DNA from: Candidatus Obscuribacterales bacterium
GTDB taxonomy: Bacteria; Cyanobacteriota; Vampirovibrionia; Obscuribacterales; Obscuribacteraceae
Assembly: GCA_020050835.1 (NCBI GenBank)
Contig: JAGVKB010000125.1
Coordinates: 1-32,978, forward strand
DNA length: 32,978 bases
Direction: 5' to 3'
The notes beneath the pieces were generated by a model that did no database searches, was not told the origin of the DNA, and was given only the letters and a program-made list of their open reading frames with translations. A program made the translations under genes and the position numbers. Each line of letters opens with the position of its first letter. Position 1 is the first letter of the stretch. Positions 1 to 32,978 of this stretch are shown here, one piece after another.

Positions 1-444
<444 letters not shown>

Positions 445-585: not shown

Positions 586-1752
586 TTATGGTGCCTGGGA
601 ATCGCCAACGCTTGCTTCAGAGGAAATCATTTGGAGCAATTTATTGCGCGTCTTTTCGATTGCTGGACTGCTTGGATTTGCTCTGTACGCACGTTCAATT
701 GCTGCAACGGCTCCGGCCAGATCCTTTCGCTGGAGGTAGCGATTTACTTCTTCGAGCTGCTCCTTTGTGTCTTGGTCTCCGGTAGAACTGTTCGTTGTGT
801 CCGAAGAGAAATTAGTAACTAGATGCTGTGAAGGTATTCCACTGCGTGGCAAAATTCGTGCCCATGTAATGAGGTAGTCTCGAGAGTGGTTGCTGAGTCT
901 AGGCAGTCGGGTGAGCTCTAACGCCGTGTTGGTACTTTCAAATATATGGAGGCGCTCAACTATGTAAGAAGGAACATTGAGATCTACCGGATGGGCGAGT
1001 TTTAAATCGAGTGTGGTGCCGACTGGAAAGATTGATTCACTTCCTTTCTGCACGATTGGATCTAAGATTGTCAGCCCTGCACCTTCCCATGCCCCTCGAA
1101 TTGCTCCGCGGACGTAGTGCTTGTTTTCGGACAGAACGCCGCCGATTAGAGCTCCTGTTCCAGTCGTGATCGCTAGACTTAATCCACCACTTCCGATTGC
1201 AGCAGGTATTACAAGTCTATTTGCGGTCATTAAAATGCCTCGCAGCTTCTGCCGTTTAGTTCGTTCGAGTGACAACTGAGGAAGCTCGGTATTCGCGGCA
1301 TCTGAGATCCAATCAAGGAGAAAGTTCATGTTGCCGACACGCGCGCCATAAAACAACACCATAATCTTGCCGTTTTGCTGAAATCTTGCAGCGGGACTCG
1401 AGCGTTCCACCATTCCATACAGGACAGTTCCGGTTGGAAGTAGCCTTCCGAGACCACCTTCCGGCGGAGAGATAACGTGAGCGAGCACGAGGTCGCCTGC
1501 CATGTTAAACGATGAGTTGAGTGGAGTAAGTAATAGGGCACGTAAACTCGCTTCTTTTGCATGAAAGCGAAAGTGCTTACTGGCGCGACTCTGAAAAATG
1601 AATTTGTTAGTTAGACCTACCGGCGATTGAGTTTCGCATGGTGGCATCGGTTGTCCGAGTGCAGGGGTAGGTATAGCAGGAATGCAAGCCGCGAGGGCTA
1701 GTGCAGTGGCCAAGCTTTGGGTAAGTAGGAATGAATCGTTCTTGAGGTTCAT
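586..1752 (-). CDS. Exported protein of unknown function, possible lipoprotein
   Basis: I do not recognise the family. The 388-residue product has a hydrophobic N-terminal signal. Residues 20-23 read L-A-A-C, a good lipobox, so it may be a lipoprotein cut before Cys23. A signal peptidase I site near PALG-Q (about residue 34) is the alternative. The middle has a glycine-rich hydrophobic stretch (about 195-225) followed by a FPVGTTLDLKL segment. The last ~60 residues look like one or two TPR-type helical hairpins (KEQLEEVNRYLQRKDLAGA...). The ATG start has no clear Shine-Dalgarno sequence. The gene is alone on its strand between the 16S terminator and the polysaccharide genes. Export is well supported; function is unknown. 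Confidence 0.75.
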   Translation of the reverse strand: MNLKNDSFLLTQSLATALALAACIPAIPTPALGQPMPPCETQSPVGLTNKFIFQSRASKHFRFHAKEASLRALLLTPLNSSFNMAGDLVLAHVISPPEGGLGRLLPTGTVLYGMVERSSPAARFQQNGKIMVLFYGARVGNMNFLLDWISDAANTELPQLSLERTKRQKLRGILMTANRLVIPAAIGSGGLSLAITTGTGALIGGVLSENKHYVRGAIRGAWEGAGLTILDPIVQKGSESIFPVGTTLDLKLAHPVDLNVPSYIVERLHIFESTNTALELTRLPRLSNHSRDYLITWARILPRSGIPSQHLVTNFSSDTTNSSTGDQDTKEQLEEVNRYLQRKDLAGAVAAIERAYRANPSSPAIEKTRNKLLQMISSEASVGDSQAP

Positions 1753-4225: not shown

Positions 4226-5578
4226 GTGTACAGAGCATTTTTGGTATTCCTAAGCCTGATTCTGATTTCTGTGTGGACTCCGGGAATCTCATACCTCCCT
4301 GCAGAAGCGGACAACTTGGTTCCGATCAGCGAGGCTGACAAGCCGGATGCTCAGCTAGCCGGAGTAAACTCGGACGCGCAGCCCGACCAGAACCAATCGC
4401 CTCATTCTCCCGGAGACGGTCGTTCGCTTGCTGCGGCCGACACCCCAGCTATTCGGCTCTTCCCAGCTCCGCAGACAGGGCGTTCTGATGAAGGGGTCCA
4501 AACTTCTGGTCTGGGATTGTTGCCTGATTATGTTCTTGGACCTGGCGATGAACTAGCCATTCGCGACATGTCGTCTATTGAGGCAAGTACGCTTCCGCCA
4601 CTTCCAAATCAACGTGTTTTGAATGATGGAACTGTAATTGTTCCGCCGGTAGGTGTCTTATGCGTTGCTGGACTGACCTTGAGCCAAGCAAACGAATTGG
4701 TTAACGAGAAGGCTCGTCGATTTATTGTCAGCCCGGGAATCTACATTGCGGTCTCGAATCCTCGCCCGACGTCTGTTTATGTACTTGGTGAGGTCGTTAA
4801 TCCCGGACTATACTCATCCGCTGGCAGCGTCTCAACCCCGGAAGGTGGAGCGGCTGGTTCTAATGCTGCTGGCTCGCCCGGCTTGTTGACTGTCAGCGCC
4901 GCATTACAGCGGGCGGGAGGACTGACTGAGTATGCAAATGTACGTCAGATTCAAGTGACTCGATTGAGTTCAAAGAAGCCTTTAGTTTGCGATGCATGGA
5001 AGCTATTGACAGAGGGAGATGCCAGCCAGGATCCATTGCTTCTAGCTGGTGACGTAGTCTATGTGCCAAAGGGGGGAGATGGGTACAATCCCAAGCCTTT
5101 TGGATTAGTAGCCGATCAGCATCGGCCGGTTCGGGTATGGGGCGCAGTGAATAAGCCTGGGCTGTATGAAGCGAAAGCCGGAGACGACATTTTGTCGGTA
5201 ATAAGCGAGGCGGGCGGGTTTCAGAAGCACGCTAATACAAAGGCTGTCATGCTAAGTAGACTGAACAGGGATGGAACGGTAACAACTGAGAAGGTAAATA
5301 TTCCTGACGCGCTAACCGATGCCGATGCGGCGGCTAGAGTACACGTGAGTCCTGGTGATGTAGTAGTAGTTAACTGGTCGTTGAAAAAGGAAAGCGGGTC
5401 AAAGGCTGGGGTTGGCCTTGTGACATTTGTAGTCTTTGCGTTGATATATGCATTGAACTATCGGTTCAATAGAGGATTGAATCAACAGAATTTTGGATTT
5501 AACCAGCAATTACAGCAGTCAGGGGCACGGGTGGCTCCGGTGTCGGGGGGAGCAGGTGGCAATGCGGTATTACCATAA
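4226..5578 (+). CDS. Wza-like polysaccharide export protein (Poly_export + SLBB)
   Basis: Periplasmic/outer-membrane polysaccharide export protein of the Wza/OPX class. Residues 1-27 form a signal sequence. A Pro/Asp/Gln-rich linker leads to the Poly_export domain (about 103-195, starting YVLGPGDELAI and including LNDGTVIVPPVG), then SLBB domains (VYVLGEVVNPGLYS, about 183-196; VRVWGAVNKPGLYEA, about 306-320). A hydrophobic helix (about 393-412) lies near the C-terminus. There is no lipobox Cys, unlike classical Wza, and an in-frame TGA at 4217 rules out a longer N-terminus. The start is GTG at 4226, with GGAG at 4211-4214. It heads the rightward operon with the Wzc-like and GT2 genes and should work with the Wzc-like protein 120 bases downstream. 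Confidence 0.92.
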   Translation: MYRAFLVFLSLILISVWTPGISYLPAEADNLVPISEADKPDAQLAGVNSDAQPDQNQSPHSPGDGRSLAAADTPAIRLFPAPQTGRSDEGVQTSGLGLLPDYVLGPGDELAIRDMSSIEASTLPPLPNQRVLNDGTVIVPPVGVLCVAGLTLSQANELVNEKARRFIVSPGIYIAVSNPRPTSVYVLGEVVNPGLYSSAGSVSTPEGGAAGSNAAGSPGLLTVSAALQRAGGLTEYANVRQIQVTRLSSKKPLVCDAWKLLTEGDASQDPLLLAGDVVYVPKGGDGYNPKPFGLVADQHRPVRVWGAVNKPGLYEAKAGDDILSVISEAGGFQKHANTKAVMLSRLNRDGTVTTEKVNIPDALTDADAAARVHVSPGDVVVVNWSLKKESGSKAGVGLVTFVVFALIYALNYRFNRGLNQQNFGFNQQLQQSGARVAPVSGGAGGNAVLP

Positions 5579-5698: not shown

Positions 5699-7783
5699 AT
5701 GTGGGGAATGGAACAAGACAACTCAATGCCATTAAGTAGTTTGATGAGAAGAGTGCCTACTCAGTTTTTTCTACCGGGTGCAGTCTTCCTTGCTGTCGTG
5801 ATGATTGGTTGCGTCCTCACCGCACTTCAGCCAAAACTGTACGAGGCACAAGCTCGAATATGGGTGCAACCGAGAAGTCAAACTTCTCAAAAGCAAGAAA
5901 TTCTTCCACCATTATCTACATTTTTCACAAGTCCACTTGTAACCGCCTCGGAAATCATTAAGTCGGGAGTTGTACTTAAAGAGGCTGTAGAGATACTTCG
6001 CAGAGAAAAGGTTGTTCCCGTTCCTGCGCAAGATGAAATTGCAAGTCACCTCACAGCTTCTCCTGTAACTAATGCTGATGTCCTTAAGGTCGCATACACG
6101 TCGACAAACAATCAGCAAGCCAGCACGATTTTGCAGGCTATCCTTGAGGCGTTCGAACAAGTCGGGAATGTCCAATCTGAAGGAAGTGCAACTAAGTATC
6201 GAGTGTCCATGGAGAAACACGTTGATATGCTTCGTAAACGCTCTAACGAAGATAGAAAAGCACTTAAGGAGTTCAAAGATCGCAACCAAGCTGTCAGTCT
6301 TCCTGAGCAGGTAAGCAGTCTTCTAAAGCAATCTGCGGCCTCGGAGGCGGAGATTGAGAAATACAAACTGAGAATCGCAGAGATGCGGAGCAAGATAGAT
6401 TATCTGCATTCTCAATTGGGATTAGGTCCAGAAGACGCTCTCTTGGCATACAAGCTTTCTCAGGATGAGGGTTTGACAGTACTTCGGAAAAAGATGGCTC
6501 TGGATAGAGCTCGATTGGTAAGTTTACGTGGGGCGTATCGCGACGAGCACCCGTACATTAAGGAATTAAATACTGCAATCGCGGCAGCAAAGGCTGAAGT
6601 TGAGCAACGCGTTAAGGCTTTGGGCGTAGAGTCGGGTCGGGAGATTGATACGGACAGATTGTCCAGCGACGATGCGGTTCGTCAGAAGTTGCTGGAGGAT
6701 ATGGTGTCGGCGCGCTCCGAGGAAATTTCGGCTCAATCTGGGCTAACTCAGACTGTGTCGTTATTGGCTGACACGAATGCCCGCCTTGCCAACATTCCGG
6801 CTGCACAGGTTCAGCTTGCAGAGCTTGGTCGCAAAGAAACTGTATCTTCTGAAGCACTTTCAGATGCTGAGCGTAGTGTACATAATGCACAGCTTAATGA
6901 GACCGTGGCTTCTTATTCTGCCAACACTCGAGTTATCGATTGGCCCACACCGCCGAAATCGCCTAAGTATCCGAATGTACCGCTTAACGTTGGACTTAGT
7001 GTATTAATTGGTTTGATGTTTGCTGTGCTCGCGTTACTTGCTGGTCCCGTTGTCTGGAGACCAAGTGAAGTTCAGAGAATACTGAACCTACCGATCATTG
7101 ATTGGATGAAGCAATTACCCTGCAATGGTGCATTGCCGGCCTCTATAATCCCGCTGCATCGCCTTCGCTTAGGGATGCAGCATCTTTTATCGAGCGAGAG
7201 AAAGTGCATAGTAGTAACAAGTCCCGATCGAGAGGATGGCAAGACACTGATTGCCAGCTCCTTGGCTATTGGCTTTGCAGAGAGCGGACTAAGGGTACTG
7301 TTAATAGACGCAAACCTGGAACGTCCGGGATTACACCGAGTCTTTGGTATACCTGCTGGTCCGGGATTGACTGACTATCAAATTGCGGAAGGAGCGGACT
7401 CAATCCTACGTAACTCGCGTGCTTATCCTTCGCTTGCAATAATCTCGAGGGGAAACACCGAGGCACGCTTCGGCAGTCTTACTTCGACGAAACTGAGGGA
7501 ACTTATCCGCGCACACAGCTCGAAGGCGGATGTTATTATCGTTGACACGCCTGCATTTAAGGACTCGCCAGATTCTTTGTCAATGCTTCAAGCTTCCGAT
7601 CTGTTGCTGGTGGTAGTCAGTCTGAATCATACGAGCCGCACTTCAATCAAAGTATTTCAATCGCAACTTCGGCACTGTCAGCTTGCTGCCGCCGGGGTGG
7701 TTCTAGTCGGGACCACTGATAGGGCTGTGGTTGGGGTATTGCAAGCCGAAGAGCAAAATGAACTTGAAGAGGCGTCCGTCTGA
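5699..7783 (+). CDS. Wzc-like polysaccharide co-polymerase with BY-kinase-type ATPase domain
   Basis: Inner-membrane chain-length regulator fused to a cytoplasmic ATPase. The first transmembrane helix is at about 24-43 and begins the Wzz domain. A long periplasmic coiled-coil region spans about 160-400. The second membrane helix is at about 430-450, preceded by the typical Pro-rich PTPPKSPKYPNVPLN. The ATPase domain has Walker A TSPDREDGKT (507-516), Walker A' VLLIDANLERPG (D537) and Walker B VIIVDTPAF (D616). The C-terminus ends NELEEASV with no tyrosine cluster, so the autophosphorylated tail of proteobacterial Wzc is missing. The ATG at 5699 is used, and ATG 5708 is an alternative. It lies between the wza-like and GT2 genes; no Wzb-type phosphatase is in the window. 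Confidence 0.93.
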   Translation: MWGMEQDNSMPLSSLMRRVPTQFFLPGAVFLAVVMIGCVLTALQPKLYEAQARIWVQPRSQTSQKQEILPPLSTFFTSPLVTASEIIKSGVVLKEAVEILRREKVVPVPAQDEIASHLTASPVTNADVLKVAYTSTNNQQASTILQAILEAFEQVGNVQSEGSATKYRVSMEKHVDMLRKRSNEDRKALKEFKDRNQAVSLPEQVSSLLKQSAASEAEIEKYKLRIAEMRSKIDYLHSQLGLGPEDALLAYKLSQDEGLTVLRKKMALDRARLVSLRGAYRDEHPYIKELNTAIAAAKAEVEQRVKALGVESGREIDTDRLSSDDAVRQKLLEDMVSARSEEISAQSGLTQTVSLLADTNARLANIPAAQVQLAELGRKETVSSEALSDAERSVHNAQLNETVASYSANTRVIDWPTPPKSPKYPNVPLNVGLSVLIGLMFAVLALLAGPVVWRPSEVQRILNLPIIDWMKQLPCNGALPASIIPLHRLRLGMQHLLSSERKCIVVTSPDREDGKTLIASSLAIGFAESGLRVLLIDANLERPGLHRVFGIPAGPGLTDYQIAEGADSILRNSRAYPSLAIISRGNTEARFGSLTSTKLRELIRAHSSKADVIIVDTPAFKDSPDSLSMLQASDLLLVVVSLNHTSRTSIKVFQSQLRHCQLAAAGVVLVGTTDRAVVGVLQAEEQNELEEASV

Positions 7784-25187: not shown

Positions 25188-25238
25188 AAATAGCTGGGTA
25201 AATTGCAGAGGGGAGTTTGCCGTCACGGAGGTCGAGGG

Positions 25239-26654
25239 TTGGTGAGGTCATTTAGCCTGACACTATCTCTTGCGGTATCTGTTTTTCTAGTGGTTGCTAG
25301 CCAGCCTTGTGTTAATGCAGAACAAGAGTCAAACAACGCAGTTGTTGTAGCAGAAGAAGGTCTGAAAAACGTTGTAGTTTCCGGTTCCGCACGGTCCTTT
25401 GAGCTCAATGGTAAAACGTACCTGCGCGGTCGCGTCCAGAAGCAAAATGGTGACACTTCGAGCTTTGGCTCCAGAAGACAAAGTGCAGGAGGCGACGAGA
25501 CCTCCAATAGCAATTCAGGCAGCTTCTTAGCCGATCCTATCGATAGCAGCATACCCATTTTTGTCACTATGCATGAATCAATCTTTCTGCCTGAAGCGGC
25601 GGAATCCTCGTGGATTGCACTAGACAAGCTTTTTGAGAATACCGTAGTTGCCGCGCCCGAAACTCCCAGGACTGGAAGGCACAAGTCCGCCAAAGAAGGC
25701 GCTATTTATAAGAGCAAGAGCATGTTGAATTACATGCTGGGTTACCGTGCCTTCGGCCCTTCGGCTGAGGCGGCGGATCTCATTTTAGATGAGCATTCAA
25801 AATTGAAGAGCGCTGATGCTAAGAAGTACTACCTTCAGCAAGAAGTTGATCAAGGACACTTGATGACGGTGTCTAACATCTTGCAACTTGGGATGGGGCT
25901 TGGAACATCAGACAGCATCGACGTTAGAAGAATGACGAATGCAAGTCTCACAGCCTTGCGTGCTCTTGTTGGCGACAGCGAGACGGACGAGATTTTGAAA
26001 ACTCTGAAATCGCTTCGAGAAGCAGAGCGTTTGTCTGGAGCAGTTCAATCGCACGGACTATGGACACTAGGCGATCGAGCCGGGAAGGTGGACAGAATTG
26101 TTCAATCAGCTCTCGCCTGCGATCCTGTGATAACTGACCTGAAGAAGACTGTCCACCGCTATAATCGTCATGGAAAAGTGTTGCTTCGAAGCATGGGTGC
26201 TCTACAAGCTGCACTACATGTGGCTGCTTTCACGCCGACTTTCGCGGCTCCGGCTGCAGAGACGGCAAGCTTCCTTCTCGTTATGTCAACGGGTGGACCT
26301 GAGCAGGATAAGCTGCTTCGCGAAATGTACCTGTCGAAGCGCTTAGAGAGTCGCACGCGGATGATAACTGATAAGGCGCGCATGGCTGTAGACGCCTACA
26401 ACGCGGCCTTGATGGCGGACAATTCTGTATTGCTTGCTAGTGCTCAAGCGCTAGTTAGGCAGATGGCCGGTGAAGAAATGGTGAGAGAGGTATTTGGATC
26501 TTCTGAACTTGCGAATTATGTTGGAATTGACCGGACAGCAGTGAAGTCCAGTTTGCCAAACAAGCCTGGCAATGCAGTCGCCCAACTAGACAATTTGAGT
26601 CGAGACCATTCAGCTTCAAGTCAAGTTGTCCCGAAGCGTAATCCAGCCTTGTAG
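25239..26654 (+). CDS. Exported helical protein of unknown function
   Basis: I do not recognise the family. After the signal sequence (SFSLTLSLAVSVFLVVASQPCVNAEQE; cleavage probably after VNA) comes a short beta-like segment (VVVSGSARSFELNGKTYLRGRV), a Ser/Gly-rich linker, then about 350 residues that look mostly alpha-helical and Ala/Leu-rich, with a hydrophobic stretch (about 345-365). It has few Cys. Starts considered were TTG 25203, TTG 25239 and GTG 25242. GGAGG at 25227-25231 favours 25239. It begins a run of exported proteins directly after the polysaccharide genes, which hints at a surface or matrix role, but nothing in the sequence shows an activity. Confidence 0.8.
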   Translation: MVRSFSLTLSLAVSVFLVVASQPCVNAEQESNNAVVVAEEGLKNVVVSGSARSFELNGKTYLRGRVQKQNGDTSSFGSRRQSAGGDETSNSNSGSFLADPIDSSIPIFVTMHESIFLPEAAESSWIALDKLFENTVVAAPETPRTGRHKSAKEGAIYKSKSMLNYMLGYRAFGPSAEAADLILDEHSKLKSADAKKYYLQQEVDQGHLMTVSNILQLGMGLGTSDSIDVRRMTNASLTALRALVGDSETDEILKTLKSLREAERLSGAVQSHGLWTLGDRAGKVDRIVQSALACDPVITDLKKTVHRYNRHGKVLLRSMGALQAALHVAAFTPTFAAPAAETASFLLVMSTGGPEQDKLLREMYLSKRLESRTRMITDKARMAVDAYNAALMADNSVLLASAQALVRQMAGEEMVREVFGSSELANYVGIDRTAVKSSLPNKPGNAVAQLDNLSRDHSASSQVVPKRNPAL

Positions 26655-26828: not shown

Positions 26829-27518
26829 ATGCTTAGCATCAAAATTTCAGTTCGGTGTGACAAAGCTGCCTGGCTCCAGGTAGGATTACTGACCTCATTC
26901 AATGTCGGTCTGGTCGCATTATTGTTTGCATTCTTGCCGCAAGCGGATGCTCAGCAAAATGTTCAGTCCTCTATACAGTCGCTAGCGCCGACCGTTTTGC
27001 GTGGTGCATCTAGAGCTGCTCAGCTGTTCCGGAAGCGGACAACTTCTCCGCAGCAGCAACAGGCACCTTCGCAAAATTCAGGCAAAAGTACTGTCCTGGT
27101 ACCGCCGCCGGAGCCTGCTAAATCGGTAATGCCTGCCGGAAATGCTTTTCTATCACAGGATAGAAAGCTGTCACTTCCTACCGTCCAGCCGATCCGCGTG
27201 CAGGCCTGGGTGGTGATGCTTTCATTCAAGATGAGGTCTACGCCGGAAGCAACTGGAAGTGGTGGCGCTTCTGACATGGAAATCTATGATGCATGCATTG
27301 AAGATGTGAATGGCGCCGTAGTTGAAAGGCTAAACATTTCGCGAACAAGGGATAGCTTCAAGCTCTCTGCTCCGTCAGGCAGTTTCAACGCTGAATTGGT
27401 TCCTGACCCGGATAGTCGGACTGGAATTATAAGTGTTGCCGGTGCAAGTCATTCCTATACGCTACAGAAAGCTAGTGACGGTGATTCATGCATGCTTCAG
27501 ATGACTAGAATGCGATAA
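26829..27518 (+). CDS. Small exported protein of unknown function
   Basis: A 229-residue protein with a long N-terminal signal region (hydrophobic 16-38, ending PQADAQQ, likely signal peptidase cleavage after ADA). A Gln/Pro/Ser-rich linker (about 70-110) precedes a C-terminal ~100-residue domain with alternating hydrophobic pattern (VQAWVVMLSFKM, MEIYDACIEDVNG, GIISVAGASHSYTLQ), probably beta-rich. The family is not recognised. It lies 174 bases after the previous exported-protein gene, with no convincing ribosome site. Confidence 0.72.
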   Translation: MLSIKISVRCDKAAWLQVGLLTSFNVGLVALLFAFLPQADAQQNVQSSIQSLAPTVLRGASRAAQLFRKRTTSPQQQQAPSQNSGKSTVLVPPPEPAKSVMPAGNAFLSQDRKLSLPTVQPIRVQAWVVMLSFKMRSTPEATGSGGASDMEIYDACIEDVNGAVVERLNISRTRDSFKLSAPSGSFNAELVPDPDSRTGIISVAGASHSYTLQKASDGDSCMLQMTRMR

Positions 27519-27567: not shown

Positions 27568-28008
27568 ATGAAAGAATTCGTTTTGCAATGGGGAAATCGA
27601 ATGGCGGTTGGGGCAAGACTATTTCTTCTCTTGTGGGGACTTGGTACTCTAATTCTCAATTCTCCAGCTGCTGCCGACGAAAACCCAGGGCAAGGAGAGA
27701 AGAAGCCGGCCCGCATTCGCTTTGTAGTTTGTCCAGACCCGGATAAACCAGGTGAGTGCAAGCTAAAGTTTAACAATGCACCTAAAGACGCTGGTGACGT
27801 GGAGAACTTTACCTGGGGACCGGATGGGCCACTTGAAGGGCACTTTTCCTTCAAGTATGGAGGCAAGCAACTAAACTGCACTTACAAGGTCAAGGGTTGT
27901 AAGATGCCCTGTGAGTTTGAATACATACGCTGTGGTGATCCTGAAATCGAAAAGCGATTCAAGACTAACGCAAACAGCAGCCAACCTCCGGAGCAGGAGT
28001 TTAGATAA
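27568..28008 (+). CDS. Small exported Cys-rich protein, paralogue of 28046-28471
   Basis: A 146-residue protein with a signal sequence (hydrophobic 17-31, cleavage near SPAAA-DE) and a compact domain with six cysteines after it. The pattern RIRFVVCPDPDKPGECKL ... GHFSFKYGGKQLNCTYKVKGC ... PCEF ... RCGDPE aligns with the protein encoded convergently at 28046-28471. All six cysteines are conserved between the two and probably form disulfides in the periplasm or outside. The family is not recognised. The stop lies 37 bases from the stop of its paralogue. Confidence 0.78.
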   Translation: MKEFVLQWGNRMAVGARLFLLLWGLGTLILNSPAAADENPGQGEKKPARIRFVVCPDPDKPGECKLKFNNAPKDAGDVENFTWGPDGPLEGHFSFKYGGKQLNCTYKVKGCKMPCEFEYIRCGDPEIEKRFKTNANSSQPPEQEFR

Positions 28009-28045: not shown

Positions 28046-28471
28046 TCACTCTTTCGGCATTAAATCGGCTGGCCAATTTTGAGGCGGATCCTTATCCCAG
28101 TCACCAAGTCGAAGATCAAATAAATTGGCGTCAGCTCCGCAGTCAACACTTATGGTGCAGCTTGGTTTCTGGCAAATCGCTTTGTATTTGCAACTGCATT
28201 TCTTGCCATCGATCCAGAAGGTAATGGTTCCCTGGTTTGGATGGTCATCCGGAGTAATAGTCACGTCTTTCGATGTGGCGATGGCACAAATTCTGCACTT
28301 GCCGTTGCTTGACTCATCCGGCGGGCACAGTTTGAATCTAACTCTTCCTCCATTTGCCTTGTTCGATCCTGCGTTCTCTTCGACCGGTTGCGCATAGCTA
28401 CAAGGACTCATAGCCGTCACCGCGAGTATGCAAGCAATTATCGGTATCTCGACTTTTAGTCCCATTTGCAT
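28046..28471 (-). CDS. Small exported Cys-rich protein, paralogue of 27568-28008
   Basis: A 141-residue protein with a signal sequence (to about SPCSYA-QP) and a domain with eight cysteines. It aligns with its convergent neighbour: RVRFKLCPPDESSNGKCRIC against RIRFVVCPDPDKPGECKL, and GTITFWIDGKKCSCKYKAIC..SCTISVDCG against GHFSFKYGGKQLNCTYKVKGC..PCEFEYIRCG. The two extra cysteines could make a fourth disulfide. The inverted arrangement suggests duplication with inversion. Function is unknown; the cysteines in an exported protein suggest a disulfide-stabilised surface or periplasmic domain. Confidence 0.78.
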   Translation of the reverse strand: MQMGLKVEIPIIACILAVTAMSPCSYAQPVEENAGSNKANGGRVRFKLCPPDESSNGKCRICAIATSKDVTITPDDHPNQGTITFWIDGKKCSCKYKAICQKPSCTISVDCGADANLFDLRLGDWDKDPPQNWPADLMPKE

Positions 28472-29318: not shown

Positions 29319-32300
29319 ATGCACAATTTGGCGGACCTGGGCAATAAGAAGAGACTGAGAAGGATCGGACGAGGGCGCGGACCGCCAGCAGCAGGCGGCT
29401 GGGCTTCGCATGTCTTCGGATTTATGCGACGCCCGGTAGCAGGCGGAAAGTCGAGCGTGCCGGGGCAGTGGAGCCGGCGCGCTGTTTGTGCTGTGTTGGC
29501 CTTAATGCAGATCTGGGCAGCATGTGGCTGGACCCTCTCCGTTAGCGCAGAGGAGTTGAAGCGGCAAAAAGCACAGCCGGCCGAAGGGCAGGCGGTTGTG
29601 CGTAGCACCAGCCTAGCCGCAGAAGAGTTCGGTCCGGGTCTGGAGGTTCTACGTAACGGTTCGGGTACCGGTGTAAGCGCAAATTCGCTTCTTGAGACAG
29701 CAAGCGAGAAGCAGGCATTCGAAGGTTCTCACCAGTCTGTAGAAAGGTACCGGCTCTTGGCGCAGGCCTTTCAGAAGTCGCCGGACCGTGTGATTTCCAT
29801 ACGTGGGGCTGATGGCTCTGGGGCTAAATCCGATGAGACCGGTTCATCGAATAGTCGCCAGACCAAACTGCCTCGAATTCAATTGCCTCCAGAGCCAGCG
29901 GTTCCAGCTCTACCATTCTCTTCGAGAGTTGTCCTCAGCCCTCAGTTAGCTGTTGTAGCACCTGATTACCGCTTGAATCCGTCGAACCGGACTGAAGGAA
30001 TTACCGACGGTGTTGATGCATCGCTCAACTTACCACTGCTGACGATGGTGCCAATATCTGATCGACCAGAACTGCCAAAGGAGCAAGTGAGCTCGCACAT
30101 TTCGATAGCTCTACCGGTTTCTCAACTTCCGCAGAACTCGGACTTGACCGATTCTACAAGTTCTACGGGCGCAGCCGATTCTATAAGACTGAATCTCTCC
30201 TCCCAAGCTTTGAGTGCTCCGCCTCTGGCTGAGTGTTGTACTCCTGGCTTGAACGGCCAGCTGTCTAATGGTCTTAACGATCGTCTGGAGCTGTCTCCGA
30301 AACCTGAAGCTGAGTTGCCTTTGCTGGCGGAGGCTCCGTTCGAGCGTTCTGTTGAGAGCTCTGTGGTCTCCCAGGCGGAGTCCTTTGTGGCGGAATCGCA
30401 ACCCGATGTTCCACCGAAAGAGACTTTTGATCGGGTTGTACAGTTGGCGGCAAAAGGACCGCCGGCAAAGACTGCCGTACCATCCTTGTTACGACAAGGA
30501 TCCGTGCCGAGTGCTCCAACGCAAGTAATTGGGCGCAGGGGGTGGCGTTCCGGTCCAATTGAAAATTATCCCTTCCGTTCGGCGCTTGGTCCTTACAAAT
30601 TCGCCTTTCCGCGAGACCATGGTGCACATGCTGATTATCAGACCGAGTGGTGGTATGTCACCGGGCACCTCAAGAGCAATGAGGGAAAGACCTTTGGTTT
30701 TGAAGTCACATTCTTTCGGCAGGGCGTAAATCCGGCATTCTCTTCGACGAAGCCGCCTCTAGACCTTCACATGGTCCACTTTGCCGTAACGGATGAACAC
30801 AAGAAACGATTCGAGTTTCGTCAAAGATTCAATGTTGAGGGTAGCGAAGGCTGCGACGCCAGCGACAAAAACTTTCATGTTACTCACGGCGATTGGTTCG
30901 GCGAGTTCAAGGATGGACAGTTCCATATTAAGACTGGGGGACAGACGCTTGGTGTTGATCTGGTTTTGACGCCGCTGAAACCGCCGGCACTACACGGTCA
31001 AAATGGCGTGTATCAAAAGCAGGATTGTGTTGGCTGTGCAACGCACTATTACTCGTTTACGCGCTTGTTCACGGAAGGGAGGCTGAATGTCGGTGGCAAA
31101 TCGATGCCTGTAACCGGCGTTAGTTGGTTCGACCACGAATGGGGTACCAGGCAAGGATGGAAAGATGGTTGGTTGGGTTGGGACTGGAATTGCCTCCAGT
31201 TTCCCAATAACACAGAGGTGATGCTCTATCACATTCGAAGGTTTGATGGTAAGCCTGATCCCATGTCTTCAGGCACATTCGTAAATGCTGACGGCACTAC
31301 CGAGCATCTGAAGCTTGAGGACTACAAAATGCAACCGCTTGCATTTTGGACTAGTCCAGTAACGAGCGCAACTTATCCAGCCAAGTGGCATGTGTCTGTT
31401 CCCAAGAAAGGCATAAACGTGCTGGTAACGCCTACGGTCGCCAATCAGGAGTTGTTTACTACTGGCATAACCTACTGGGAGGGAAGCTGTAATGTAACTC
31501 CGTTCGGTAAGGAGCGTGCTGGTGGCGATCGGAACAATCAGTCTGGCATTCTTCCTGGGCGGTCTCCAGTGCGGCTCGGAAGTGAGACCGGTTTTTCGTC
31601 GTACCTGCCAGTTCTGTCTTCAGTTCTGAGGCACCAGGGTATCGGACTTGAGCTGTTAGGAGCCTATCTGGTTGAACCGCTTCCCGATTCGCAGATGTTT
31701 TCTCTTGCGGATATACGCCAGCAGAGTGCTGGTGCCCCTGTAGAAGATGAGCAAGTTGATAACAGTAGCGGAAGTGGTGAGCGAGTTGATGATGACCGTA
31801 AAGATGACCGGGTGCTTATCGCACAAGCAGCCGCGGTAGCGAATGCCCAAACGCAAGCACAGAACGCCTCCAATCAAGGTTATGCGGCTGCCGGTCAAGC
31901 TAATGCCGCCGCAACTCAGGCTGGCGCAGCAGCTAGTGAGGCCGCGGCCGCCGCCGCAAGAGGTGATTACGGCGCCGCCAAGGCGGCAGCTGCTCGTGCG
32001 GCAGAGGCGGCCAATCGTGCAAAGGAAGCGGAGAAAGCGGCATATGCCGCTGCCGCTCAGGTGCAGGCGGCGGTTGCACAGATGCTTGCAGCGCTTCAAG
32101 AAGAAAGAGCCGCTCGGACTAAGGAACTCAACGAGGCTTTGACAAAGAAGGCCGAAAAGGCAAGACAGGATGCAAATAACGCCCAGGCTGCTGCGGAGAG
32201 AGCATTTAAGGCCGCAAATCCCAATATGGAAAAGGTAAGTGGACCGGAGAAGGGGGCAATTCAAGTCGGCGAAGAACAAAAGTGGGAGGTCAAGTATGAA

Positions 32301-32978
32301 GAAATCTGGGACACCACTTATTCCTATTTTGAAATGGCAGGATACGCCCCAGGGCGGTTCATATTCGAGATGACTGGGAAGGTTCCGCCATCCTGGTATA
32401 AACCGAAGGAGCAGTGCTGCAAGTATTGGATAGATATACCGCCGGAAACTGAGCATTGCTGTAAGTATTGGATAGACATTCCACCGGAAACTGAGCATTG
32501 CTGTAAGTTTTGGATAGACATTCCACCGGAATCGGAGCATTGTTGCAAGTACTGGATAGACATACCGCCGCCGAAGGACGACTGGGCGCTGTGTTGTGCT
32601 TACTGGATTGAGGTTACTCCCAAGAAGAAGGAGTGTTGTGACTATCGGATTGAACTGCCATTGTGCTGCACAATTACAACTCAACTTCCGATGTGTTGTG
32701 AGTACAGGCTAGAACTGCCCGAATCGCCTTTAGGCTGCTGCGAGTTTCCAATCGAGCTGCCGAAGACTGAGGAAGGTTGCTGTTTTGTCATTCCGTTCCA
32801 ACGTCAGTGCTGCGGATACACGCTGACGATACCGGCAGCGGAGCAGCCGTGCTGCGGGTACACGCTGACGATACCGGCAGCGGAGCAACCGTGCTGCGGA
32901 TACACGCTGACGATACCGGCAGCGGAGCAGCCGTGCTGCGGATACACGCTGACGATACCGGCAGCGGAACAGCCGTGC
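29319..32978 (+). CDS. Giant exported protein: CrtC/AttH-like lipocalin domain + Ala-rich coil + Cys-Cys repeats (3' end outside window)
   Basis: An open frame of 1220 codons without a stop, running off the window. Seen in order: a basic N-terminus and signal helix (about 50-80: RRAVCAVLALMQIWAACGW, cleavage near VSA-EE); a Pro/Ser-rich stretch (about 85-420); a lipocalin-like domain of the CrtC/AttH type (about 428-725) with FPRDHGAHADYQTEWWYVTGHL (T442-E443-W444-W445), FGFEVTFFRQ, LDLHMVHFAV, SWFDHEWGTRQ (D605-H606-E607), GWDWNCLQF and YWEGS (719-723); an Ala-rich coiled-coil segment (about 832-965); then Cys-Cys repeats from residue 1033 to the end. ATG 29319 is preceded by AGAGAG. CrtC-family members include carotenoid 1,2-hydratases and predicted secreted hydrolases; no carotenoid gene is near. 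Function is unknown; the surface role is inferred. Confidence 0.88.
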   Translation, partial: MHNLADLGNKKRLRRIGRGRGPPAAGGWASHVFGFMRRPVAGGKSSVPGQWSRRAVCAVLALMQIWAACGWTLSVSAEELKRQKAQPAEGQAVVRSTSLAAEEFGPGLEVLRNGSGTGVSANSLLETASEKQAFEGSHQSVERYRLLAQAFQKSPDRVISIRGADGSGAKSDETGSSNSRQTKLPRIQLPPEPAVPALPFSSRVVLSPQLAVVAPDYRLNPSNRTEGITDGVDASLNLPLLTMVPISDRPELPKEQVSSHISIALPVSQLPQNSDLTDSTSSTGAADSIRLNLSSQALSAPPLAECCTPGLNGQLSNGLNDRLELSPKPEAELPLLAEAPFERSVESSVVSQAESFVAESQPDVPPKETFDRVVQLAAKGPPAKTAVPSLLRQGSVPSAPTQVIGRRGWRSGPIENYPFRSALGPYKFAFPRDHGAHADYQTEWWYVTGHLKSNEGKTFGFEVTFFRQGVNPAFSSTKPPLDLHMVHFAVTDEHKKRFEFRQRFNVEGSEGCDASDKNFHVTHGDWFGEFKDGQFHIKTGGQTLGVDLVLTPLKPPALHGQNGVYQKQDCVGCATHYYSFTRLFTEGRLNVGGKSMPVTGVSWFDHEWGTRQGWKDGWLGWDWNCLQFPNNTEVMLYHIRRFDGKPDPMSSGTFVNADGTTEHLKLEDYKMQPLAFWTSPVTSATYPAKWHVSVPKKGINVLVTPTVANQELFTTGITYWEGSCNVTPFGKERAGGDRNNQSGILPGRSPVRLGSETGFSSYLPVLSSVLRHQGIGLELLGAYLVEPLPDSQMFSLADIRQQSAGAPVEDEQVDNSSGSGERVDDDRKDDRVLIAQAAAVANAQTQAQNASNQGYAAAGQANAAATQAGAAASEAAAAAARGDYGAAKAAAARAAEAANRAKEAEKAAYAAAAQVQAAVAQMLAALQEERAARTKELNEALTKKAEKARQDANNAQAAAERAFKAANPNMEKVSGPEKGAIQVGEEQKWEVKYEEIWDTTYSYFEMAGYAPGRFIFEMTGKVPPSWYKPKEQCCKYWIDIPPETEHCCKYWIDIPPETEHCCKFWIDIPPESEHCCKYWIDIPPPKDDWALCCAYWIEVTPKKKECCDYRIELPLCCTITTQLPMCCEYRLELPESPLGCCEFPIELPKTEEGCCFVIPFQRQCCGYTLTIPAAEQPCCGYTLTIPAAEQPCCGYTLTIPAAEQPCCGYTLTIPAAEQPC
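32415..32978 (+). repeat. Cys-Cys protein repeat array (at least 14 units)
   Basis: Within the gene at 29319, codon pairs for Cys-Cys recur at 32415, 32457, 32499, 32541, 32592, 32634, 32664, 32694, 32736, 32778, 32808, 32850, 32892 and 32934, with another Cys codon at 32976 cut by the window end. Spacing is 14 residues in most units, 10 in three and 17 in one. Two main types are CCKYWIDIPPETEH and CCGYTLTIPAAEQP; between them are degenerate units (CCAYWIEV, CCDYRIELP, CCEYRLELP, CCEFPIELP). The general form is CC-x-[YF]-x-[IL]-x-[IL]-P, a short beta-strand pattern followed by a Pro-containing turn. Confidence 0.92.
32808..32975 (+). repeat. Four tandem 42-bp DNA repeats
   Basis: Four head-to-tail copies start at 32808, 32850, 32892 and 32934, each coding for CCGYTLTIPAAEQP. 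Copies 1 and 3 are identical; copy 2 differs at two silent sites and copy 4 at one. The array continues past the window end. Near identity at silent positions indicates recent expansion or gene conversion. Confidence 0.95.

Follow-up and report, generated by a model that had tools for sequence, protein, structure and literature searches.

A predicted exported CrtC/AttH protein with a Cys-Cys repeat tail at a Wza/Wzc exopolysaccharide locus of Candidatus Obscuribacterales

Known proteins with the CrtC/AttH fold are either enzymes (carotenoid, kievitone) or ABC-associated proteins of the envelope that are poorly understood. What role, then, does such a domain play when it forms the head of a long repeat protein encoded at the end of a polysaccharide-export locus? 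The question is raised by a gene of Candidatus Obscuribacterales bacterium (Vampirovibrionia), whose order comprises relatives of cyanobacteria that do not photosynthesise, have large genomes and have come to light mainly through metagenomes. The stretch of DNA analysed here, referred to as the window, is a whole contig (G000:C37; 32978 bp) of an assembly fragmented into 154 contigs, and it belongs to the bin because a 16S fragment at positions 1-210 is 99% identical to one from a family member. The ORF 29319-32978 on the forward strand starts with ATG and encodes 1220 residues without a stop before the contig ends, placing the 3' end of the gene, including any anchoring domain, beyond the contig; no other contig carrying this end was found among the C-terminal-domain matches that were read. 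As the initial annotation had proposed, this single frame runs from a signal sequence and a Pro/Ser-rich stretch through a CrtC/AttH region into an Ala-rich helical segment and an array of Cys-Cys repeats; the present analysis distinguishes a full pair of CrtC/AttH domains, a helical hairpin and 14 repeats (Table 1). Reading by eye reveals a hydrophobic signal-like segment at residues ~52-77 (core ~54-73), which ends in SVSA/EE and is likely cleaved after SVSA; the lipobox-like stretch 'IWAAC' at residues 65-69 would provide an alternative. The Pro/Ser-rich stretch has no match at the other exopolysaccharide (EPS) loci at E<=1e-3, and searches of NCBIfam and PHROGs yielded no family.

Table 1. 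Positions of the features considered here in the window.
Feature	Position	Strand	Residues and basis
Wza-like polysaccharide export protein (Poly_export, SLBB)	4226..5578	+	window locus
Wzc-like chain-length determinant/ATPase	5699..7783	+	weak Wzz/GNVR/AAA Pfam matches
N-terminus, probable Sec signal sequence	29319..29549	+	1-77; sequence reading only
Pro/Ser-rich low-complexity stretch	29550..30560	+	78-414
CrtC N-terminal lipocalin barrel PF07143	30642..31148	+	442-610; hmmscan
Lipocalin_9 barrel PF17186	31173..31511	+	619-731; hmmscan; alignment of 15 relatives
Ala-rich helical hairpin	31794..32216	+	helices 826-880, 884-966; two AlphaFold runs
Possible displaced terminal strand 'YFEMAGYA'	32307..32354	+	997-1012; position-weight score
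14 Cys-Cys repeats CC-x-[YF]-x-[IL]-x-[IL]-P	32415..32978	+	mostly 14 residues apart; cut by contig end

Profile searches bore out the assignment of the head to the CrtC/AttH group, with hmmscan against Pfam returning 161.9 bits for PF07143 (2.9e-47; cut-off 22.5) and 117.8 bits for PF17186 (4.6e-34; cut-off 26.2). Structure prediction, which the initial annotation had suggested for head and repeats alike, served the former, modelled as a double lipocalin fold with block pLDDT mostly >90, but not the latter, whose fold is of low confidence (block pLDDT ~45-57 in two AlphaFold runs). The AttH-like protein NE1406 (PDB 2ich) is the sole sequence match in the PDB and the closest solved relative; the head model superimposes on it with Z 40.5 and rmsd 2.3 over 317/323 residues, in a fold comparison that spans mainly model residues 2-597. 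Nevertheless, the window head differs from ordinary AttH: the terminal [YF]-x-E-[LM]-T-G-Y strand, normally found ~300 residues past EWWY, is missing there in all four EPS-type heads described below, whereas nearly all other relatives retain it, as judged from the alignment of 15 relatives and the nearest loci.

Where structures with this fold have been solved, the proteins use hydrophobic substrates, be they prenyl, isoprenoid or other compounds (kievitone hydratase, CghA, Fsa2, 25-phosphosteroid lyase), and CrtC falls into the same group (PMC4717167). The head may accordingly still be an enzyme, i.e. a hydratase or other prenyl-modifying activity working on an isoprenoid such as the lipid carrier of the glycan, with the tail merely localising it. 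Indeed, H576-x-Y578 and W603-x-D605 lie 29 residues apart from His to Asp, exactly as in the essential set H239-x-W241 and Y266-x-D268 of R. gelatinosus CrtC (PMC4717167), a mapping by motif and spacing only. However, the His/Asp pair is not kept within the EPS clade (Q replaces H in G022, E replaces D in C111) and the terminal strand is out of place, so that we regard an enzymatic head as unlikely.

The link to a polysaccharide locus turned out to be stronger than the initial annotation had claimed, as it recurs at three loci of the host and in a second genome. PF02563 matches four genes of the host genome, among them the Wza-like gene of the window. The four contigs with a Wza-type gene together make up 2.2% of the assembly; three of them carry a CrtC gene, and these are three of the four CrtC genes in the genome. 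Homologues of the Wzc-like protein adjoin the related CrtC genes: in C115, and likewise in C111 with one small opposite-strand frame in between, wzc precedes the CrtC gene, and a wzc-like match lies directly upstream in the relative G022:C56. The four heads (window, C115, C111 and G022:C56) form one clade with support 100/98 in a tree of 108. Two observations weigh against such a link, namely the absence of a CrtC match from the fourth EPS locus (C142) and the distance of 21.5 kb that separates the window CrtC gene from wzc. Within the literature collection that was searched, the terms 'hydroxyneurosporene synthase' and 'exopolysaccharide' do not occur together in any paper.

The genomic context also bears on whether the window protein is simply an ordinary AttH, which would handle lipids in the periplasm as partner of an ABC permease of the FtsX type. 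Its closest solved relative is of this kind, plain proteins of ~380 aa make up most of the family in the order, and a permease adjoins those that were read; overall, permease matches were obtained at 62 or more of the 104 CrtC loci with enough upstream sequence. The EPS clade has lost this context: no permease was matched near any of its four heads, the window having been checked by ORF reading for the FtsX/LolC type. Since the permease goes with the plain copies, from which the EPS heads are separated in the tree, and the window chain reaches at least 1220 aa as compared to ~320-420 aa for free-standing members, this already weakened reading is very improbable.

The long tail is likewise a property of the clade. 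CrtC/AttH proteins are normally free-standing, as had been stated at the outset: in 79 of the 80 nearest species-genome loci the chain ends 307-385 residues past EWWY (one contig-cut at 271) and lacks a C-terminal tail, the exception being the EPS-type relative, and of 28 CrtC frames phylum-wide only those of C37 and C115 in the host genome exceed 621 aa. A long tail is present in cis in the window, C115 and G022:C56, and a tail-like protein is encoded by the next gene in C111. In C115 the head is fused to Pro-rich PTKPTRPMTWP repeats and a CxCG C-terminal domain without a Cys-Cys array, whereas in C111 the head has a gene of its own, and the next gene encodes a 1477-aa protein (ORF2) that combines a Wza-like N-terminus with repeats and the same C-terminal domain as in C115. 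As judged from their sequences, C115 and C111 are a fused/split pair that ties head to tail. The CxCG domain is shared by C115 and C111 ORF2, and an N-terminal part of it can be read in G022:C56. Thus, the fusion seen in the initial annotation as a new architecture is real, and related head fusions exist in C115 and G022:C56, but the window protein belongs to a small clade whose tails differ, and its Cys-Cys tail was found in the host genome only. A conserved segment following the head in all four loci was also considered and rejected: five of the six pairwise local alignments did not stand out from shuffled sequences (11.9-42.6% of which scored equally well), the G022-C111 pair being marginal at 1.9%.

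These fusions also speak to whether head and repeats could stem from separate genes joined by misassembly. The contig ends inside the repeat array of a fragmented assembly, and the repeats occur in the window only; however, a single in-frame ORF of 1220 codons runs across dissimilar segments with comparable third-position GC, and independent C-terminal fusions are found on C115 and G022:C56, making an artefact the least probable of the explanations considered.

Between head and repeats, the Ala-rich segment 833-975 was modelled in both AlphaFold runs as two long helices (block pLDDT mostly 72-94). It might represent an insertion into the second barrel that displaces the terminal strand to residues 997-1012 and leaves the Cys-Cys repeats alone as the tail. 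'YFEMAGYA' indeed resembles YVEMTGYA, MAFFT aligned it unprompted, and an alignment-guided model places 997-1012 at the terminal strand of AttH (2ich versus model residues 5-597). Yet 30 of 2000 shuffles reach the same position-weight score, the strand docks in the barrel only when the suggestive alignment is given and stays undocked (pLDDT ~30) in a control run without it, and the motif is missing from the other three clade members. A second, similar unit comes after 'YFEMAGYA', which may therefore be a degenerate repeat. On balance, we consider a displaced strand rather unlikely.

The 14 Cys-Cys pairs lie at residues 1033, 1047, 1061, 1075, 1092, 1106, 1116, 1126, 1140, 1154, 1164, 1178, 1192 and 1206, and two 42-bp tandem arrays underlie them at the DNA level. 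The protein repeat is maintained, because near-identical copies diverge mostly by synonymous changes. A continuation of the 42-bp array is absent from every other contig of the genome, and no such repeats were detected in any other of 53 genomes of the order or 386 of the phylum at the thresholds used (E<=1e-6 for the phylum); G027, G046 and G035 gave weak hits (E 1e-4 to 0.008), which were discarded as short or stop-containing. The PDB contains no match. The galaxin repeat PF24748 scores 25.1 bits, below its curated cut-off of 28. Paired cysteines can bind metal, and 28 of them in 14 pairs could bind e.g. copper or zinc rather than form crosslinks; however, no His/Asp ligands are conserved alongside them, the hydrophobic residues alternating after each pair suggest a structural strand, and no metal genes were noted among the neighbours, so that metal binding seems quite unlikely. 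Galaxin and similar di-Cys repeat proteins are matrix framework proteins, although vicinal cysteines may also form small closed rings rather than crosslinks (PMC2726143); this and the low-confidence repeat fold count against the role proposed below.

Taken together, the EPS-type CrtC fusions are a real, undescribed protein family with a predicted function, and the window protein is most likely a secreted matrix or anchor protein. We tentatively favour an exported modular protein of a Wza/Wzc exopolysaccharide locus, whose EPS-clade head would bind a hydrophobic ligand and whose tail would hold the polymer. That is, a diverged CrtC/AttH clade would have moved from ABC-permease operons to EPS loci and gained long C-terminal tails. 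The window protein would first be exported via Sec; its head may then bind a hydrophobic ligand, such as the isoprenoid/lipid terminus of the glycan or a lipid located where the polymer is exported, or alternatively the export machinery. Ligand binding is uncertain, because no large cavity is present in AttH 2ich (PMC2954199). The helical hairpin would push the tail outwards, and the beta-type Cys-Cys repeats would form a structural, probably disulfide-stabilised array keeping the polymer at the cell surface. A broader proposal, which we consider doubtful though conceivable, is a class of polysaccharide-anchoring proteins in which CrtC/AttH heads at Wza/Wzc loci link the polyprenyl/lipid end of the glycan to lineage-specific repeat tails, here disulfide-linked, to form a protein-glycan sheath. 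If so, each such EPS locus of the host genome would have its own head-tail protein. A polysaccharide-export CrtC clade with structural tails points to a role in envelope or matrix and supplies concrete genes, and the window protein hints at how Obscuribacterales may build their surfaces.

Among known systems, NE1406 (PF07143/PF17186, formerly DUF2006) shares both lipocalin barrels with the window head; however, it is free-standing (~330 aa), ends in YMELTGY and has an ABC transporter context, as compared to the displaced or absent terminal strand, EPS locus and long tail of the window protein. The carotenoid 1,2-hydratase CrtC has the PF07143 domain and the catalytic His/Asp spacing in common with the head, whereas Trp and Tyr are swapped at two aromatic positions (Y578, W603), and the window protein is a predicted exported fusion in a locus where no carotenoid genes were seen. 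Kievitone hydratase, 25-phosphosteroid lyase and the Diels-Alderases CghA, Fsa2 and Phm7 adopt the same fold (Z ~22-30), but are free-standing enzymes of 6-16% identity to the head. Galaxin-like repeats resemble the tail in having two CC motifs per ~28-30 residues within an exported repeat protein; they are, however, animal proteins, and the resemblance is probably convergent. Further counterparts are the C115 and G022:C56 fusions and the C111 split pair, which have in common with the window protein the head clade, an EPS locus with wzc and a long partner.

The CrtC fusion extends over 1220 codons and reaches the end of C37 without a stop, C37 being a contig that the window covers entirely and one of 154 in the 7.0-Mb source assembly. 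Its head and Cys-Cys repeats lie in a single frame, as the initial annotation had claimed. The 16S rRNA fragment at the contig start is 99% identical to one in a genome of the same family, which places C37 in the bin; an rRNA operon thus flanks the contig on this side. The 3' end of the gene is missing, and its repeat is found on no other contig of the source genome. Pfam profiles for CrtC (residues 442-610) and Lipocalin_9 (619-731) matched the middle region far above cut-off, confirming its proposed assignment to CrtC/AttH (PF07143), and the N-terminus, judged by eye from the sequence, is a probable export signal. The Cys-Cys array comprises 14 pairs and includes two sub-arrays of almost exact 42-bp repeats, whose copies differ mostly at synonymous sites; this speaks for selection at the protein level. 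A galaxin-repeat match (residues 1032-1155) stayed below threshold. Among the order and phylum genomes searched, the Cys-Cys tail is present in one genome only.

CrtC/AttH proteins are indeed normally free-standing. Among the best 80 CrtC loci from one-genome-per-species collections (total matches exceed 80), the chain ends 307-385 residues past EWWY in 78, and YVELTGY or a close variant ends nearly all. The two exceptions in length are L095, which is the relative's contig G022:C56, and L150, whose contig stops 271 residues past EWWY. Long N-terminal parts occur in three of the 80 (L130, L147, L155), whose loci each contain a permease match; in these three, from Eremiobacterota, Planctomycetota and Chthoniobacter, the CrtC/AttH domain shares one frame of 1177-1250 aa with what seems to be a fused ABC permease. 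Out of 28 CrtC frames in 386 phylum genomes, only those on C115 and C37, both from the source genome, exceed 621 aa. Taken together, fetched loci and phylum frames confine C-terminal tails, within the sequences searched, to the EPS-type group.

The source genome has four CrtC and four Wza-type genes. One of each lies on C37, C111 and C115, bearing out the suspected tie to a polysaccharide locus; C53 carries a plain CrtC gene, and CrtC is absent from the Wza/Wzc locus of C142. As the four Wza-bearing contigs together span 152 kb of 7.01 Mb, chance would place three of four CrtC genes there with a probability of about 4e-5, calculated for a comparison picked after the data were seen. Head and tail-like protein are fused on C115 and split on C111, where the 1477-aa protein matches Poly_export weakly at its N-terminus and the C115 C-terminus at its own. 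By eye, G022:C56 and G022:C476 (L024, L089) have seven in-frame bases in common at their ends (GGATGGG), so the full protein may reach ~1400 aa; the two are probably one gene with the C115 architecture.

Gene orders and features of the window and related loci
Feature	Location	Description
16S rRNA gene 3' end	window 1-210	contig start; RF00177, 217.5 bits
388-aa protein	window 586-1752 (-)	33% homologue in C142 EPS locus
483-aa protein	window 25203-26654 (+)	signal-like N-terminus; no Pfam match; between glycosyltransferase region and CrtC fusion
229-aa protein	window 26829-27518 (+)	as preceding
Small protein	window 27568-28008 (+)	signal-like N-terminus, several cysteines
Small protein	window 28046-28471 (-)	as preceding; end to end with it
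CrtC fusion	window 29319-32978 (+)	reaches contig end
C115 gene order		opposite-strand wza-like gene, wzc-like gene, 1478-aa CrtC fusion
C111 gene order		wza-like (opposite strand), wzc-like, small opposite-strand frame, 446-aa CrtC, 1477-aa protein
C111 1477-aa protein	L011 5456-9886	weak Wza-like Poly_export domain (residues 62-145), then W/P-rich repeats; adjoins CrtC gene
G022:C56 gene order		wzc-like match, then CrtC fusion (797 aa or more)
Large source-genome proteins	L009 4453-8886; L011 5456-9886; L084 4933-8961; L085 4813-7470	parts of an unnamed C-terminal domain in common

In a tree of 108 heads, those of the window, C115, C111 and G022:C56 form one clade (support 100/98), with C111 and the window on long branches. 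In none of the four does the terminal strand motif stand at its usual position. No ABC permease was found at these loci, G022:C56 having less than 1 kb upstream, occupied by the wzc-like match; among the 104 loci whose upstream sequence is long enough, no fewer than 62 have a permease next to CrtC, a lower bound from one query. Two AlphaFold runs on residues 415-1220 agreed on a head of high confidence and a pair of long helices (826-966), with the Cys-Cys repeats as short strands at a block pLDDT of ~45-57, too low to assign a fold. The modelled head aligned with AttH 2ich over 317 residues (Z 40.5), ahead of kievitone hydratase (Z 30) and of Diels-Alderases and 25-phosphosteroid lyase (Z ~22). 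In the first run, residues near 1001-1011 (YFEMAGYA) formed a strand where AttH has its terminal strand, as a displaced copy of that strand would, but the input alignment had already put the motif at this position. It stayed undocked in a control run whose alignment lacked the terminal motifs, and 30 of 2000 shuffles equalled its motif score, leaving displacement a weaker alternative.

Regarding other genes, the two small proteins are paralogues (29% identity, E 4e-9), without Pfam match and absent from all other family genomes searched. The 388-aa protein is perhaps a further component common to the source-genome EPS loci, judging from its homologue. The large proteins carry varied Pro-rich tandem repeats (PTKPTRPMTWP, GHNPPxGVFVCYG and others); their C-terminal domain region, used as query, hit 40 of the 50 family genomes, and they deserve description as a family.

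As to function, we mostly infer a role in which the head would bind a hydrophobic ligand connected with the export of polysaccharide, hairpin and repeats would make a structural tail, and the cysteines would be oxidised outside the cytoplasm. CrtC of R. gelatinosus requires H239, W241, Y266 and D268 (PMC4717167); by motif and spacing, H576, Y578, W603 and D605 are the window counterparts. Within the aligned clade, D is replaced by E in C111 and H by Q in G022, which argues for binding rather than hydratase chemistry common to the clade, while the window protein itself may still be catalytic. The galaxin literature cautions that vicinal cysteines may close local rings instead of crosslinks (PMC2726143). 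By analogy only, the Cys-Cys repeats resemble galaxin and related matrix proteins of animals, in which two di-Cys motifs fall within each stretch of ~30 residues.
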